Part shown: in pieces, positions 26,122-32,197 of the stretch
How positions within the stretch are numbered: the first letter of the stretch is position 1
How the letters are laid out: every line of letters starts with the position of its first letter
DNA from: Candidatus Caldarchaeum subterraneum
Lineage (GTDB): Archaea > Thermoproteota > Nitrososphaeria_A > Caldarchaeales > Caldarchaeaceae
Assembly (NCBI GenBank): GCA_937934305.1
Contig: CALHAG010000005.1
Location: forward strand, 1 to 56,424
Direction: 5' to 3'
DNA: 56,424 nt
The notes under the pieces: model-generated
Database searches by the model: none
Seen by the model: only the letters and a program-made list of their open reading frames with translations
Told to the model about the DNA's origin: nothing
Program-made: the position numbers and the translations under genes

Positions 26122-26679
26122 ATGGATGTAGTTGGTTTCCTCAGCCAGATTGAGCCGCCTCTTCCGCCGCCTTGGCTTGACCCCGCTGTTTTTCTGTCGA
26201 ACCTTTTCTGGGTCTTCTTGAGAACTTTTACCACGTTTGTCGTCGTCTTCATTCTCGGACTTGTCTCGCTCCGTGTCGTTGACTGGATAACTCCGGGTGT
26301 GAAGGAGCTTGAGCGAGTCAAGGGTCATCCGCTTGCGACGGCTCTTTTCGCCGCTGGCTTTTTCGTCTACCTCTCGTTCGGCTACATCGCCTCGATGGCC
26401 TCGCCTATTCCAGTGGGTCTCGAGACAGGAATAGTGTCTGGACCCAACCTCAGCCCCCTCGTCCTAATAGGCTACAAGCTCGTGACACTCCTTTTCGGAG
26501 TCCTCCTATCATACGTATTCGCGATAGTATATTATCGCATACTGGCTAAGGTTGAGCCTTTCGGCCTCGACTTGGACGATGTTGACAAGGAGCCGCTCGC
26601 AGTAGGTGTTTACCTTTTCGGCTACCTCGTCTTCCTAGGAGCGGTCGTCTACGTTGCTTTGATGCTTCCCGCGGCGTAG
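26122..26679 (+). CDS. Four-TM membrane protein with an internal repeat
   Basis: The 185-residue protein has four hydrophobic segments (about residues 27-52, 70-93, 108-133, 152-178). The second and fourth resemble one another (HPLATALFAAGFFVYLSFGY and EPLAVGVYLFGYLVFLGAVV), suggesting duplication of a two-helix unit. This resembles the DUF350 layout, which I offer only as a possibility. It is the first gene of a four-gene envelope cluster, 4 bp before the PrsW-like gene. Function is unknown. Confidence 0.75.
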   Translation: MDVVGFLSQIEPPLPPPWLDPAVFLSNLFWVFLRTFTTFVVVFILGLVSLRVVDWITPGVKELERVKGHPLATALFAAGFFVYLSFGYIASMASPIPVGLETGIVSGPNLSPLVLIGYKLVTLLFGVLLSYVFAIVYYRILAKVEPFGLDLDDVDKEPLAVGVYLFGYLVFLGAVVYVALMLPAA

Positions 26680-26683
26680 GGAA

Positions 26684-27556
26684 ATGTCTTTCCGAGAAAG
26701 CATCTCAACTTTTTTCAAGCGTCCATCACCCATTGTAGCACCAACTCAGGAGATATACGCGGCCGGCGTCGTCACTCCACGGTTTTCCCGTCTAGTTCTT
26801 GCTTTGGCTGCTGTTATGGTTTTGATGGGGTTGGTAGCTGTTTTAGTAGAGGGCCTTTTCACATTGGCCGCCTCTCTAGCTTTTTCTCTACTGCCTGTGG
26901 CACTACTTCTTGTGTGGGCTTTGAAGACCGACCGGTATGAGCCTGAGCCCAAGTCTCTTGTTTTGATGGTGATTGGCTTGGGAGGAGCTTTAGCCGCATT
27001 CTTTACAGCCATCTCCTTGCCAGGTGGATTGCTGGGATACGTCGTCAAAGTGGCCTTGGTCGAGATAGTGTTCTTCCTAGCTCTCTATGGCTTAGACGCA
27101 AATAGATTCACTGGTAGAGAGTTTAACGACCATATGGATGGCGCTGTTTATGGGCTTGCGCTTGGCGCAGGATACATCGCTTACGCAAACTTTCTAACAG
27201 TTCAAGCAGGTGGATATGTTACTTCTCTTGCTGCGACAGTCTTCGCGCTGGAGAGGTTTTTCACAATGGTTTTTCCGGGGCTGACAGGCTGGTGGATAGG
27301 ATATGTGAAGGCAAAATATGTCTCGGTCGGGTTTAGGCCCCTCTTTATCGGCTTCCTTCCCGTGCTCTTGCTACGGCTTGTTTATGAGGGTGTTTTGACA
27401 GGTTTCGCTGGACTAGTGCTACCTCTGAGGCTTGCCGCAACCACTTTGGTTGGACTAGTCTTCCTCGCTATCCTAGTAAGGCGTATTCGCTGGGCTCTGG
27501 AGGATGAGAAGATTTGGGGCTATGCTTCTGGCCTCGCACCGGTGGAGAAAAAATGA
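26684..27556 (+). CDS. PrsW-like membrane protein, catalytic motif apparently degenerate
   Basis: The 290-residue protein has about eight helices. KTDRYEPEPKSLVLMVIG and, further on, FNDHMDGAVYGLALGAGYIA correspond to the DRYEPEP and DGxVYGxxxGxG regions of PrsW-family (M82) intramembrane proteases. The glutamate pair plus Lys (EExxK) expected in the preceding helix reads VALVEIVFFLAL here, with one Glu and no Lys, and the later EN pair reads AN. It may therefore be a non-proteolytic relative. It is coupled to the gene on each side (4-bp gap before, ATGA overlap after). Confidence 0.7.
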   Translation: MSFRESISTFFKRPSPIVAPTQEIYAAGVVTPRFSRLVLALAAVMVLMGLVAVLVEGLFTLAASLAFSLLPVALLLVWALKTDRYEPEPKSLVLMVIGLGGALAAFFTAISLPGGLLGYVVKVALVEIVFFLALYGLDANRFTGREFNDHMDGAVYGLALGAGYIAYANFLTVQAGGYVTSLAATVFALERFFTMVFPGLTGWWIGYVKAKYVSVGFRPLFIGFLPVLLLRLVYEGVLTGFAGLVLPLRLAATTLVGLVFLAILVRRIRWALEDEKIWGYASGLAPVEKK

Positions 27557-28572
27557 AGCAGGTTAAATCAGTTGCGGCAATAGTTGCTTTTCTAGTCGCG
27601 TTATCATCCCTGGTGGCTGTCTCGGCTCAGGGTGCTCTTCCTCCCTACATCCAGCCGGGGCTTGTCTTCGTCTACCAGCTACGTGATGGACAGAAACAGC
27701 AGCTGGAGAACGCGTTCCACAAATACGTCATCGAATCTGTCTCACCGCAGGGGGTCACGATAGCCATAGTATCTGACGTTGCCCAATCGGGGAGATTGAC
27801 TGTAAACGCCAACGGCGAATTTAAGCCTGGTGAGAGAATCGACCTCTGGATTCCACAAGGAGTCTCTGCCGGCACCCGTTTCAAGATGATGGGCGTCGAC
27901 GCTGTTGTCGCCCAGACAGGCTATGAGATGCAAAACTTCAAAGTAACAATTGTGGTATCGGCGGACCAGTCAATTCTTTGGGTCTTTAATGAGGATGGGC
28001 CTCCGCCATATAACCAACTCAAGGGGCTTCTGCTACTTGTCATATTCAGCTCGAACGGCAAAGCCCTTGTTCTTGTCAACATAGAGCAGGCGGGGGCGGT
28101 TACAACCACGTCAACCTACAGCACAACTACACGAGCCGCCACAACAAGACCCGTAACAACCACGAGGACGCAGGTTACCGAGGGCAGGACTGAAACAGTC
28201 GTGGAGACGCAGACGGTCACCGAGACAACAATCGTAACAAAAACAGTCGAGACGGTGCAAACCTACACCACGACAACCACCTCGTCTGTGAGTGTTCAGG
28301 CGGAGAACCCGCCACCGGTGATACCTCTGACAGTGGCTATACCGATAGCCGCCGTAATAGTTGGAGGTGGACTGTTCTACATCAGGTCGAGAAGAAGGCC
28401 TCTGCCGCCGACTTATCCCTACCCCGCTTATCCGCCTCCTCCGCCCACATCCGGCTACACTCCTCAGCCACCTAGACAGGTTATCGCTCCCGCGGCCTAC
28501 TGTCCCGCCTGCCGGTTCCCAATATATCCCGGCGAGTACATGTGTAGGAGGTGTGGTTTCCGTGTCGCCTAA
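27553..28572 (+). CDS. Secreted, Thr-stalk membrane protein with C-terminal zinc ribbon
   Basis: The 339-residue protein starts with a signal peptide (VAAIVAFLVALSSLVAVSAQ), followed by an extracytoplasmic domain of about 170 residues that I do not recognise. A Thr-rich stalk (about residues 185-260) leads to a TM helix (VAIPIAAVIVGGGLFYI), a Pro/Tyr-rich cytoplasmic linker and a final zinc ribbon (CPACRFPIYP ... CRRCGF). The ATG at 27553 overlaps the upstream stop (ATGA). The layout suggests a sensor or scaffold linking the outside of the cell to a cytoplasmic partner; the function is inferred, not known. Confidence 0.8.
   Translation: MKQVKSVAAIVAFLVALSSLVAVSAQGALPPYIQPGLVFVYQLRDGQKQQLENAFHKYVIESVSPQGVTIAIVSDVAQSGRLTVNANGEFKPGERIDLWIPQGVSAGTRFKMMGVDAVVAQTGYEMQNFKVTIVVSADQSILWVFNEDGPPPYNQLKGLLLLVIFSSNGKALVLVNIEQAGAVTTTSTYSTTTRAATTRPVTTTRTQVTEGRTETVVETQTVTETTIVTKTVETVQTYTTTTTSSVSVQAENPPPVIPLTVAIPIAAVIVGGGLFYIRSRRRPLPPTYPYPAYPPPPPTSGYTPQPPRQVIAPAAYCPACRFPIYPGEYMCRRCGFRVA
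28546..28552 (+). promoter_or_regulatory. Ribosome-binding site within the zinc-ribbon coding region
   Basis: AGGAGGT lies 9 nt upstream of the GTG at 28562. It is formed by codons of the zinc-ribbon tail of the previous gene and sets the start of the metalloprotease gene. Confidence 0.7.
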
Positions 28573-30199
28573 ACCAATCATCGCAATTCTGCTTGTTGTC
28601 TTATTTGTTTCATCTGTTTTGCCAGCCGCTGCGCAGGAGCAGGAGTTTGAATGGAATCGGCAGATACCGTTTATAGGGGCTCAGCCTACTCTCGTCCTGC
28701 TGGTTCAGTTTAGCGACGTCAAGCTAAGCATCTCGAGGACTCAGGCTGAGCAGATTGTGAAGATAGTTGACAACTTTGTAAGAGATGCATCATATGGCAG
28801 GACATGGCTGGAATACACTATTCATCCAAAGGTGATAACGCTGCCTAAACCCATGTCCTACTACGGTGGACCAAGCTCCGGTGCACAGAGAGGAGACGAC
28901 AACCAAAGGATTCTTGAGTTTCATCTAACAACAATACAGCTCGCCAAGAAGGATGGAGTGGACATAAGCCAATACAAACACGTGATAACAATTCACGCAG
29001 GAAAAGATGAAGCAGCCGGCGGCTCAGCCAACGACATCTGGAGCCACTGTAACTGTGTCGTACCCAAGATTCTCTATTTTTTAATAGAGCAGTATGGATT
29101 TGACGCTGTCGAGTCAGATTTGAAGAAGCAGGGATATGATTGGGTCGTTGAACTCTTTATGCATAGAACACGGAGCGGCGAGGGCAGATTGCTTTCGGGA
29201 ATAGAGACAGTCGCAGAATATGATATCCCGTCCACTATGGCTCATGAATTCACTCACAGCATGTGGATACCCGACCATTATGTTTACGCTAAAGACGGCT
29301 ATAGTGCGGGGAGCGAGGTCAGCGTCTGGACTAACATGGACTCCGGTTCTTTTATGGACCCTCCCGTCGACATAGACGGCTGGAGCAAATACTTGCTGGG
29401 CTGGATAGAAGCTGTTACAGTTGAAAGAGACGGGGAATACACTATTCATACTCTCGATAAACCCGATGAACCACATGCCTTAATCATACCCATAAACGAG
29501 AAAGAATACTACTTCATACATGCTCGTAGGCCTGTGAAGAATGATGAGGCACTACCCGGCCCAGGCGTCCTAGTCATGCGAGTCAACAAATTCAAAGACA
29601 ATAATGTTGAGGGGGAGCCTTTCATGGTGCAGCTTTTCGACGCCAACCCAGACACCCCAAGAGAATGCGAACAATATGCATCCGGATTCAGAGATCCGCG
29701 TCGTTTCATGACTTTGTGTGTAAAGTTTGACGCACCCTTCTACAGCGCAGATGGCTATAGCGGCACATGGGTCTCAAAAGCTGCTGGAGGAAGAACATTT
29801 GGAACTTATCAGATAGACTTGGGTAATTCCGAGTATGTGACTGAGGAGGGTTTCAGGATTTCTGTTTTGTCGTTTGATGAGAGAACGGGTCTGGCGAGGA
29901 TACGTGTTTCGTTGGGTGGACAGCCTAGGGAGGAGGGCGGTGAAACAACTGTTGTCACGGTAACACGAACGGTGACGGGAACAGCCACCGAAACACTCTA
30001 CACAACCACAACAATCGTAGGAACAGAGACAAGAACAGTCGTCGTCACAGTTACAACAACCCAGCTCCCACGCTCAACAGGAGAAGAATACATCTCCATA
30101 GCCATCATACTCGCCGCACTTCTCTTCACAACAGCCATAATCGCCGTGGGACGAAGAAGACCAAGGACAGCGCCTCCACCGCCGCCCCCTGCATGGTAG
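28562..30199 (+). CDS. Secreted, membrane-anchored M6-like metalloprotease
   Basis: The 545-residue protein has a signal peptide (PIIAILLVVLFVSSVLPAAA), a catalytic domain with the zinc motif MAHEFTHSMWIPDHY (HExxH and a downstream Asp/His, near residue 238), an all-beta region, a Thr/Val-rich stalk (about 460-510), a TM helix and a Pro-rich tail. The arrangement AHEFxHxxxxPDHY followed by MDSGSFMDPP is like M6 (immune-inhibitor-A/InhA) peptidases. The GTG start follows the AGGAGGT site. The gene overlaps its upstream neighbour by 11 nt and shares the stalk-TM anchoring style with it. Substrate is unknown. Confidence 0.8.
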   Translation: MSPKPIIAILLVVLFVSSVLPAAAQEQEFEWNRQIPFIGAQPTLVLLVQFSDVKLSISRTQAEQIVKIVDNFVRDASYGRTWLEYTIHPKVITLPKPMSYYGGPSSGAQRGDDNQRILEFHLTTIQLAKKDGVDISQYKHVITIHAGKDEAAGGSANDIWSHCNCVVPKILYFLIEQYGFDAVESDLKKQGYDWVVELFMHRTRSGEGRLLSGIETVAEYDIPSTMAHEFTHSMWIPDHYVYAKDGYSAGSEVSVWTNMDSGSFMDPPVDIDGWSKYLLGWIEAVTVERDGEYTIHTLDKPDEPHALIIPINEKEYYFIHARRPVKNDEALPGPGVLVMRVNKFKDNNVEGEPFMVQLFDANPDTPRECEQYASGFRDPRRFMTLCVKFDAPFYSADGYSGTWVSKAAGGRTFGTYQIDLGNSEYVTEEGFRISVLSFDERTGLARIRVSLGGQPREEGGETTVVTVTRTVTGTATETLYTTTTIVGTETRTVVVTVTTTQLPRSTGEEYISIAIILAALLFTTAIIAVGRRRPRTAPPPPPPAW

Positions 30200-30248: not shown

Positions 30249-31103
30249 TTGGCTGGAAAACCTGTCATCGAGATTGCATTCGACACACCGCGGCTGGAGG
30301 AGAAGCTGTTAGCCAAGGCGGTGGCCGCAAAAGGAGCTGAACTCCGGCTGACAAACATCAAACAAAATGTCTTCACACTCCAGAAAACCTCTCTGGACGT
30401 CTGTCTCGTGCGATGCGTCTCCCTCTACAGCGCCATACACACAGCCGCGTTGAGAGAGGGCGCGGGTGTCCGCAGCATAAACAGCTCCGAATCCATTTTC
30501 CTCGCGGGAGACAAGGTATTGACGGTTTCGCGGCTCAGGTCGGCGAACCTTCCTATTCCGAGAACCGCTGTCGGGCTGAACACGAGAGCGGCTGAAAAGG
30601 CCTTGGAGAAAGTGGGGCTGCCTGCAGTCGACAAACCACCCATCGGAAGCTGGGGCAGACTCATCGCCCTCGTGAGAGACATCGACGACTTCAAGCTCGT
30701 CGCCGAACACCGGGAAATGCTGCCCAGCAGCTACATGAAAACCCACATAATACAGGAATACATCGACCTGCCGAACCGAGACATCAGAACAATCGTAATC
30801 GGCGAAGAGGTCGTTGGAGCAATCTACCGCTACAGGTCTTCAAATGACTGGAGGACAAACGTCGCACTCGGAGGAGAACCCGTCCAAGCTTTTCTCAACG
30901 ACGAGCTGGTGGAAATAAGCCTCAGAGCCGCGAAAGCAGTGAAAGGTGATGTTGTCAGCATAGACGTCTTCGAGACAACCGACGGCAGCTACCTCGTCAA
31001 CGAGGTAAACGGCGTCCCCGAGTTCAAAGGATTGATGAAGGCAACAGGAGTAAACGTTCCCGAGAAAATCATCGACTATGTAATTGCCTCAACAAGAAGG
31101 TAG
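30249..31103 (+). CDS. LysX/RimK-family ATP-grasp ligase
   Basis: The 284-residue protein has the ATP-grasp layout. KPPIGSWGRLIALVRD in the middle is the LysX hallmark (GSWGR), and VVSIDVFETTDGSYLVNEVN carries the Mg-binding Asp/Glu/Asn near the end. LysX and ArgX join alpha-aminoadipate or glutamate to the carrier LysW in archaeal lysine/arginine synthesis. No lysW or other lys genes adjoin, so either the pathway is dispersed or this paralogue has another acceptor. Translation starts at TTG 30249. The 3' end overlaps the convergent archaemetzincin gene by 35 nt. Confidence 0.8.
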   Translation: MAGKPVIEIAFDTPRLEEKLLAKAVAAKGAELRLTNIKQNVFTLQKTSLDVCLVRCVSLYSAIHTAALREGAGVRSINSSESIFLAGDKVLTVSRLRSANLPIPRTAVGLNTRAAEKALEKVGLPAVDKPPIGSWGRLIALVRDIDDFKLVAEHREMLPSSYMKTHIIQEYIDLPNRDIRTIVIGEEVVGAIYRYRSSNDWRTNVALGGEPVQAFLNDELVEISLRAAKAVKGDVVSIDVFETTDGSYLVNEVNGVPEFKGLMKATGVNVPEKIIDYVIASTRR

Positions 31104-31599
31104 CTCGGCCCCTGCATCTTTCACATAGCTCGCCGCTTTTCAAGTCAACCTCATCAACCGAATTGCTGAAACTCATAACACAGCTTCCCGCGCTGCAGTG
31201 CCTCAAGCCAATCAAGTGCCCCACCTCGTGAACAGCCTCCTTCAAAACCCTATCAAGCAGCAAAGACCTCCCAAACCCCCCAACCTCTACAGAAGGCTTC
31301 AGCCTATGGATAGAGAGAACACCCCCGGGTGAAGGAGCATATCCGAAGACAAAATTAAGGCCCTCGACATAAAGGTCTCTACCGGTCAGGATGAGCACAA
31401 ACGGCTCCCCGGGATGTATGTGCTTCACAAGTTTTTCCGCGTCATACTGACGTCTCTGAGAATTCCAAGCCTTCTCGGCAGAAGACACTAAACCATTCTC
31501 AACAACAACATCAAACCCATAAACCTCCGCAATCCTCGCCGCGACCGCCGAACCGAGGCCCTCGTCACCCGTCTCATTCAAAACCTTTAATCGCAACAT
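31069..31599 (-). CDS. amzA: Archaemetzincin (zinc-dependent peptidase)
   Basis: The 176-residue protein ends in the family signature HEVGHLIGLRHC...C.M (zinc motif HExxHxxGxxH then Cys residues), followed by CERC that completes a second, structural zinc site. The Met of VMSFSNS is the metzincin Met-turn. I chose the ATG at 31599 (MLRLKVLNE), because the residues read upstream of it are the complement of the divergent AK6 gene. The physiological substrate of archaemetzincins is not known. Confidence 0.93.
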   Translation of the reverse strand: MLRLKVLNETGDEGLGSAVAARIAEVYGFDVVVENGLVSSAEKAWNSQRRQYDAEKLVKHIHPGEPFVLILTGRDLYVEGLNFVFGYAPSPGGVLSIHRLKPSVEVGGFGRSLLLDRVLKEAVHEVGHLIGLRHCSAGSCVMSFSNSVDEVDLKSGELCERCRGRATFLLRQLHSR

Positions 31600-31621
31600 C
31601 TCCAACAACCCGCGGAATACG

Positions 31622-32197
31622 TTGATAATATGGGTGACGGGGACACCGGGGGTGGGCAAGACAGCCACGGGCAGAGAACTTGCAAAACGTCTCGGAATAG
31701 GTTTCATAGACCTTCCCGAATATGTATCGATGAACAACCTGTATAAGGAGAGGCTGGAGGATGGCACGATGGTTGTAGAATCACGGAGGCTTGCCCAGCA
31801 TCTATCCAAACATGTTAAAGGCGACACGGTCATAGCGGGACACATCACGGTCAAGGTTCGAGGGCATGAGACAAGATGCGTGGTTCTCCGACTCAACCCT
31901 CTCCAGCTTAGGGAAAGGCTTGAGGAAAGAGGCTACAGCGTGGAGAAGGTGGCGGAAAACGTTGAGGCAGAGTTTCTCGGAGTGGTTTACCTCGACGCAT
32001 TACGTGTGTTCGGGAAGAACCGCGTAAGCCAGATAGATGTGACTGGGAAAGAGGCTAGCGATGTGGTTAACCGTTGTGTTGATGTCTTGGAGGGAAGAGA
32101 TGCTGGCGATGATGTTGAGTGGATGAGCCGCTTAGATGAAGCCGCTGTCTCTCAGCTTTTACGCTATCTCTCAACCACTAAATCGAGAATCCTGTGA
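31622..32197 (+). CDS. AK6/Fap7-type adenylate kinase-like NTPase
   Basis: The 191-residue protein opens with the P-loop IIWVTGTPGVGKTATGREL and has the short lid and the hydrophobic core of the AK6 family, related to Fap7, which acts in late small-subunit ribosome maturation. It starts at TTG 31622, only 22 bp from the divergent archaemetzincin start. Its position 59 bp before ABCE1, a ribosome-recycling ATPase, fits a ribosome-related role. Confidence 0.88.
   Translation: MIIWVTGTPGVGKTATGRELAKRLGIGFIDLPEYVSMNNLYKERLEDGTMVVESRRLAQHLSKHVKGDTVIAGHITVKVRGHETRCVVLRLNPLQLRERLEERGYSVEKVAENVEAEFLGVVYLDALRVFGKNRVSQIDVTGKEASDVVNRCVDVLEGRDAGDDVEWMSRLDEAAVSQLLRYLSTTKSRIL

Follow-up and report, generated by a model that had tools for sequence, protein, structure and literature searches.

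The stretch analysed here, called the window, is a contig of 56,424 nucleotides (CALHAG010000005.1; contig C5) from the 1.56 Mb genome of Candidatus Caldarchaeum subterraneum (GCA_937934305.1; G000), and it contains a cluster of four genes on the forward strand. Gene A (26122..26679) encodes a four-transmembrane (four-TM) DUF350 protein of the YjfL type with 185 amino acids, gene B (26684..27556) a 290-residue PrsW protein that has lost its catalytic residues and is modelled with an APH-1/TMEM147-type fold, gene C (27553..28572) a 339-residue single-pass protein made up of an outer domain, a threonine-rich stalk, a TM helix, a proline-rich tail and a zinc ribbon, and gene D (28562..30199) a 545-residue M6-like metalloprotease with a signal peptide, a Thr-rich stalk and a C-terminal TM anchor. 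Gene A starts with the ATG at 26122, which is preceded by GGAGGT; a gap of 4 bases separates A from B, B and C share a 4-base ATGA overlap, and C and D overlap by 11 bases, with AGGAGG before the GTG start of D. An earlier reading of the letters alone (the sequence-only reading) had placed four genes here, linked by a 4-bp gap and overlaps, and its coordinates turned out to be exact. It had also described two products with signal peptide, Thr-rich stalk and TM anchor, which holds for C and D: both start with a hydrophobic signal, contain 39-40% Thr in the stalk (5% in the window as a whole) and have a single TM helix towards the C-terminus.

Gene B is related to PrsW, but lies far from the family models. 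The search with PF13367 gave no match for B (below the Pfam cut-off), and the NCBIfam PrsW model NF033739 matched with E 1e-4 and 21.8 bits, far under its cut-off of 225. B is homologous to the PrsW proteins of G005 (E 8.7e-20) and G007 (E 2.0e-19), which pass the Pfam PrsW model, have an N-terminal double zinc ribbon and served as live references. From these matches and from the shared motifs DRYEPEP (26930..26950 in B), EFNDHxDG (EFNDHMDG, 27119..27142, conserved in dead and live forms) and WGYAxGxAP, we conclude that B shares descent with PrsW. At the site of the catalytic EExxK of PrsW, B reads VEIVF (27059..27073), in agreement with the sequence-only reading, which had noted a PrsW-like protein without this motif. 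All six B orthologs have x-E-F here, compared with E-E-K in the nine live relatives; the first Glu and the Lys of EE..K and both His (in TM5 and TM6) are gone in 6 of 6, and 5 of 6 have also lost the Glu of EN, while DRYEPEP, EFNDHxDG and the C-terminal DE..WGYAxGxAPvE are retained. Over eight catalytic positions, the live relatives all read E-E-K-E-N-H-H-N (9 of 9), a set which is intact in no dead form, and the residues lost from B include published active-site motifs of PrsW (PMC4602095). Because the ratio of nonsynonymous to synonymous divergence (dN/dS) of B is about 0.12 against the sister genome G002, a rough value given the high dS, and its reading frame is intact in six lineages, B is under purifying selection. 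Judged by this conservation, B is a conserved pseudoprotease and more than a degenerate copy.

Solved structures gave no sequence match for A or B, and we compared B with known folds through an AlphaFold model (predicted local distance difference test, pLDDT, 78; predicted template modelling score 0.82); the structure models in this work were built on alignments of 6 and 8 sequences. When the Foldseek candidates were realigned, the best match was APH-1 of gamma-secretase (VIA Z 13.3, root-mean-square deviation 5.0 over 209 residues), followed by APH-1B (Z 12.7) and by chains of TMEM147 (Z 12.4, 11.5 and 10.6), which were assigned by length and entry titles in multipass-translocon and BOS entries; the next row has Z 7.9. 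The APH-1 and TMEM147 matches cover 201-209 residues, while the plain Foldseek E-values are weak (0.07 or higher). PrsW and APH-1 belong to one superfamily (PMC4602095). The model thus suggests a seven-TM PrsW-superfamily fold without catalytic residues in B, as in APH-1 and TMEM147, and we do not claim orthology.

The outer domain of C (residues 27-180; 27631..28092) appears LolA-like in its structure model, in which the pLDDT is 77-86 per block from residue 31 onward. Matches to LmcA (Z 11.2) and BF2203 (Z 10.5) stand out, and LolA, RseB and MucB are found in a long list at Z 5-6; the domain has no Pfam sequence match and no detectable sequence match to LolA-type proteins. With such a modelled fold it probably binds lipid or another hydrophobic ligand, and might sense lipid. 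Next follow the stalk (28096..28320; 40% Thr), the TM helix and a conserved tail, predicted to lie inside the cell, which ends in the zinc ribbon (CPAC...CRRC; 28501..28557). This ribbon is predicted to be cytoplasmic, and its match to DZR is weak (E 0.12).

Gene D passes the M6 model PF05547 narrowly (22.8 bits, cut-off 22) and matches TIGR03296 with E 3.7e-26 and 92.7 bits, which is under the cut-off of 110.8; solved structures give only weak M6 matches by sequence. Its HEFTH zinc-binding motif lies at residues 228-232 (29243..29257), and H228, E229 and H232 are invariant among the orthologs (10 of 10). The zinc ribbon and the HEFTH protease of the sequence-only reading are found in C and D respectively. 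Several acidic residues after the HExxH, candidates for the third zinc ligand, are also invariant across the ten orthologs, and the alignment to 4yu5 is weak. The stalk of D lies at 29924..30076 (39% Thr) and the TM helix at residues 511-529. Close matches of D are in records named Candidatus Caldarchaeum, Geocrenenecus, Pelearchaeum and Benthortus (Caldarchaeales, Aigarchaeota). In G039, a genome without B and C, D (L046:8797-10476) ends in its own zinc ribbon, which links the zinc-ribbon tail with the protease.

To describe the conservation of the cluster, we scored the four genes in 44 Caldarchaeales genomes, which are drafts, several of them under 90% complete; the ortholog counts leave out the weak partial A matches, which were seen in G004 and as paralogs elsewhere, as well as the live PrsW proteins of G005 and G007, which are distant. 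It turned out that A and D share the same 10 genomes (Fisher p 4e-10), A accompanying D in every one, and that B and C share the same 6 (Fisher p 1.4e-7), both values being uncorrected for shared descent. In all genomes with B, the genes A-B-C-D are consecutive with their order kept (6 of 6), and these genomes belong to three families (G000, G002 and G003 in f1; G011 in f2; G027 and G033 in f4); the sequence-only reading would have been refuted by separation of the four genes in relatives, and here they stay linked. Elsewhere, A adjoins D in G007 and the two are neighbours in convergent orientation in G039, both genomes having no B or C, and A and D lie at contig ends in G001. In G023, a remnant of 152 amino acids stands between A and D (L043:9658-10116), in which B residues 90-137 are joined, with the frame kept, to the end of C that bears the zinc ribbon. 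This is a deletion scar, and it shows that G023 lost B and C as a single unit. A and D are the more widespread core, and B and C behave as one cassette.

The same unit is visible between sister genomes. G000 and G002 share a collinear block of 25 kb (15.4 to 40.2 kb of the window) with 89% identity, inside which the segment 26690..28650 has about 68% DNA identity; this patch has sharp edges, beginning where A meets B and stopping where the signal peptide of D ends. At silent sites, B has diverged by 1.7 and C to saturation, while the values for A, D and three flanking genes are 0.28-0.57. The B-C segment has likely been replaced by recombination between G000 and G002, together with the signal peptide of D, to judge from this contrast. 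Other stretches strongly diverged from G002, or missing from the corresponding place in it, are at about 10-15 kb and 42-44.5 kb.

For distant relatives, we searched 398 genomes of the phylum with the B profile. In G338, the genes for a dead PrsW and a C-like protein overlap, and the outer domain of the C-like protein is a homologue of that of C (98.9%, E 1e-17); a live double-zinc-ribbon PrsW lies beside this pair in divergent orientation. G233 and G303 are closely related and are treated here as a single lineage; their gene order is a C-like protein, a dead PrsW and a protein of 695-705 amino acids with the motif HEVGHVLGLHH. The dead PrsW is homologous to B (99.7%), and the C-like protein is homologous to C in TM helix, tail and zinc ribbon (96.5%) but not in the outer domain. 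The third protein has one predicted TM helix, no NCBIfam name and only weak metzincin matches in Pfam; it is read as a membrane-anchored metzincin of a family other than that of D. Taken together, the dead PrsW is beside a zinc-ribbon single-pass protein in 9 of 9 cases and near a membrane-anchored metalloprotease in 8 of 9. A zinc ribbon is fused to the PrsW N-terminus in most live relatives (7 of 9) and in no dead form, where it is on the separate partner instead. Such fusions are known in bacteria and were read as signalling peptidases by Zhang et al. 2012 (PMC3482391). A DUF350 gene is also near the live PrsW of G005, with a PIN-domain gene between them, and was not used as evidence.

On a 19-row tree, a single clade of dead forms as first named was rejected (approximately unbiased test, p 0.0067), the dead forms standing in two places. 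One protein, G233a, is half-degenerate and retains one Glu, the Lys and one His; when it is included, a moderately supported branch (79/81) sets it and the dead forms apart from the other rows. Loss of PrsW catalysis may have had one origin with stepwise loss, or two origins. These sequences also bear on whether B could still be a protease, working through E127, E146, D149, H150 and D152 in a cascade of two proteases. E127 and EFNDHxDG are indeed kept in all six Caldarchaeales orthologs; however, EFNDHxDG is common to the live forms and is not a published active-site motif, E127 is lost in G338 and G233, and the Lys and both His are gone in every dead form, which makes an active B very improbable and the least credible of the explanations weighed here.

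We propose instead that B is a dead-PrsW scaffold which holds C and the surface protease D together in a surface proteolysis module, and we give this a probability of about 0.55. It is the simplest account of the conserved deadness, the kept fold, the co-inheritance and the recurrence with different proteases; since distant archaea have a set of the same kind in which the surface protease differs, the dead enzyme is probably a membrane scaffold. The proposal draws on sequence for the gene linkage across families, the loss of the PrsW active site, the HExxH of D, the co-inheritance of B and C and the recurrence with another protease, and on structure models for the fold of B and for that of the outer C domain. 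In such a module, B would have lost its catalytic residues and kept its fold, becoming a seven-helix membrane scaffold comparable with APH-1 and TMEM147, and would hold the single TM helix of C. C would sense lipid or stress, with its LolA-like domain outside and its zinc ribbon inside the cell. B and C would position or regulate D, the presumably active metalloprotease on its Thr-rich stalk above the membrane, alongside A, and the module would probably process envelope or S-layer proteins, gated by C. We infer lipid sensing, gating, substrate and complex formation, the last from gene linkage and co-inheritance.

Several points weigh against this proposal. Gene adjacency is not physical contact. 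In G007 and G039, and in G023 after the loss, A and D are present with no B or C, so D is not strictly dependent on the scaffold, and G338 has B and C without an adjacent protease. The LolA likeness of C comes from structure and not from sequence. Helical bundles reach high Z easily, a value of about 13 being the caution level stated for the tool, and the APH-1 match may reflect the shared PrsW-superfamily fold only, there being no solved PrsW among the structures compared.

The patchy distribution, the differing genomic locations and the exchange of B-C by recombination would also suit a set of envelope genes that move jointly but whose products form no common complex. We consider this improbable, because B always accompanies C, the protease belongs to an unrelated family where the theme recurs, and the zinc ribbon is on PrsW, C or D depending on the genome. 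Slightly more plausible, though still with a low chance, is a role in membrane-protein biogenesis, with B-C as the archaeal counterpart of TMEM147-nicalin that helps to insert or fold D and other proteins. The B model does match TMEM147 of the multipass translocon, and its partner is single-pass with a large outer domain, but a biogenesis factor would hardly be spread so patchily (6 of 44 genomes in the order), and the linkage is to one protease.

A further alternative is regulated-proteolysis signalling through C, in which its LolA-like domain senses a hydrophobic ligand or envelope damage, D cuts C outside, and another intramembrane protease frees the zinc-ribbon tail to act on transcription or a partner. 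RseB and MucB among the LolA-like matches of C, the zinc ribbon and conserved tail on its predicted inner side, and the PrsW-zinc-ribbon fusions of the live relatives all agree with this. Yet the membrane protease of the cluster is the dead partner, no live PrsW was found with PF13367 in the six Caldarchaeales genomes with B, and in G039 the zinc ribbon is on the protease itself. The sigma/anti-sigma pathway in which such signalling occurs is not known from archaea. We regard signalling as unlikely, although it is the strongest competitor of the scaffold proposal. The sequence-only reading had suggested a surface proteolysis or signalling module; the module is supported by the linkage and by the recurrence outside the order with another protease family, and it may signal or only cut.

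The product of A, to which the sequence-only reading had given no name, has four hydrophobic segments and matches PF03994 (E 1.1e-9, 38.9 bits, cut-off 26), and DUF350 is found in envelope-stress operons of bacteria (PMC11237479). Three more genes, E (signal and TM protein), F (multi-TM) and G (PRC barrel plus zinc ribbon), adjoin D in five relatives, and E and F are a few genes off in G003; E and F have no Pfam match. E and F occur together in nine genomes, 8 of which have D (Fisher 2e-6, shared descent ignored). In G000 they are on contig C15 with G (L135:6193-9097), outside the window. E, F and G belong to a wider set that tracks D across genomes. G-like PRC-barrel/zinc-ribbon genes are also near live double-zinc-ribbon PrsW genes at L176:8124-9179 (G287) and L179:4713-5162 (G315). 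Close downstream of D is an archaemetzincin (M54) gene on the reverse strand (31069-31896), which G002 has too. An integrated element beside the tRNA-Pro gene was considered and dropped: the 3' end of the tRNA has no second copy in the window, so there is no sign of such an element.

A broader proposal, to which we give slightly less than an even chance, is that these proteins form an archaeal dead-PrsW scaffold family in Thermoproteota, in which loss of catalysis is coupled to the zinc ribbon moving to a separate single-pass partner and outer metalloproteases of at least two unrelated families use the same platform, as a prokaryotic counterpart of APH-1/nicastrin and TMEM147/nicalin. PrsW-zinc-ribbon fusions in bacteria are known, while in the open-licence papers searched we found no account of a dead PrsW combined with an outer protease and a separate zinc-ribbon partner, and this combination is apparently new. 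The archaeal dead PrsW, kept by selection, always beside a zinc-ribbon partner and mostly beside a surface protease, suggests that prokaryotes too have converted a protease to a scaffold, with one or two such events among the sampled archaea. It would offer a small, expressible system for studying this change in a membrane protease, and the module is a candidate for envelope proteolysis in thermophilic archaea that have been little studied.

Compared with known systems, B is like PrsW, including the double-zinc-ribbon fusions, in sequence homology and in the DRYEPEP, EFNDHxDG and C-terminal WGYAxGxAP motifs, and unlike it in the lost catalytic motifs, the absence of a fused zinc ribbon and the score under the Pfam cut-off. 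D resembles the M6 (immune inhibitor A-like) metalloproteases in its HExxH and probably in its M6 domain. Known M6 enzymes are mostly secreted, whereas D is anchored in the membrane and raised on a Thr-rich stalk. In its modelled fold, the outer domain of C appears to be like the half-barrel proteins LolA, RseB and LmcA, but C is tethered by a stalk and a TM helix and has a zinc ribbon inside. iRhom with ADAM17 also pairs a dead intramembrane protease with a membrane-anchored metalloprotease; this is a works-like comparison only, iRhom being a rhomboid and not a PrsW, with no homology. The closest parallels are APH-1 (with nicastrin, in gamma-secretase) and TMEM147 (with nicalin, in the multipass translocon), dead seven-TM members of the PrsW/CAAX-protease superfamily, like B, with the same modelled fold, which have turned into scaffolds of eukaryotic membrane complexes. 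Both work with a single-pass partner bearing a large outer domain, and C is such a protein; the single TM helix of nicalin packs on TM1 of TMEM147, as modelled on APH-1/nicastrin (PMC7505659). Unlike the archaeal module, these systems are eukaryotic, and the outer domains of nicastrin and nicalin are neither LolA-like nor M6. There is also no presenilin here, and the active protease would be the outer metalloprotease.

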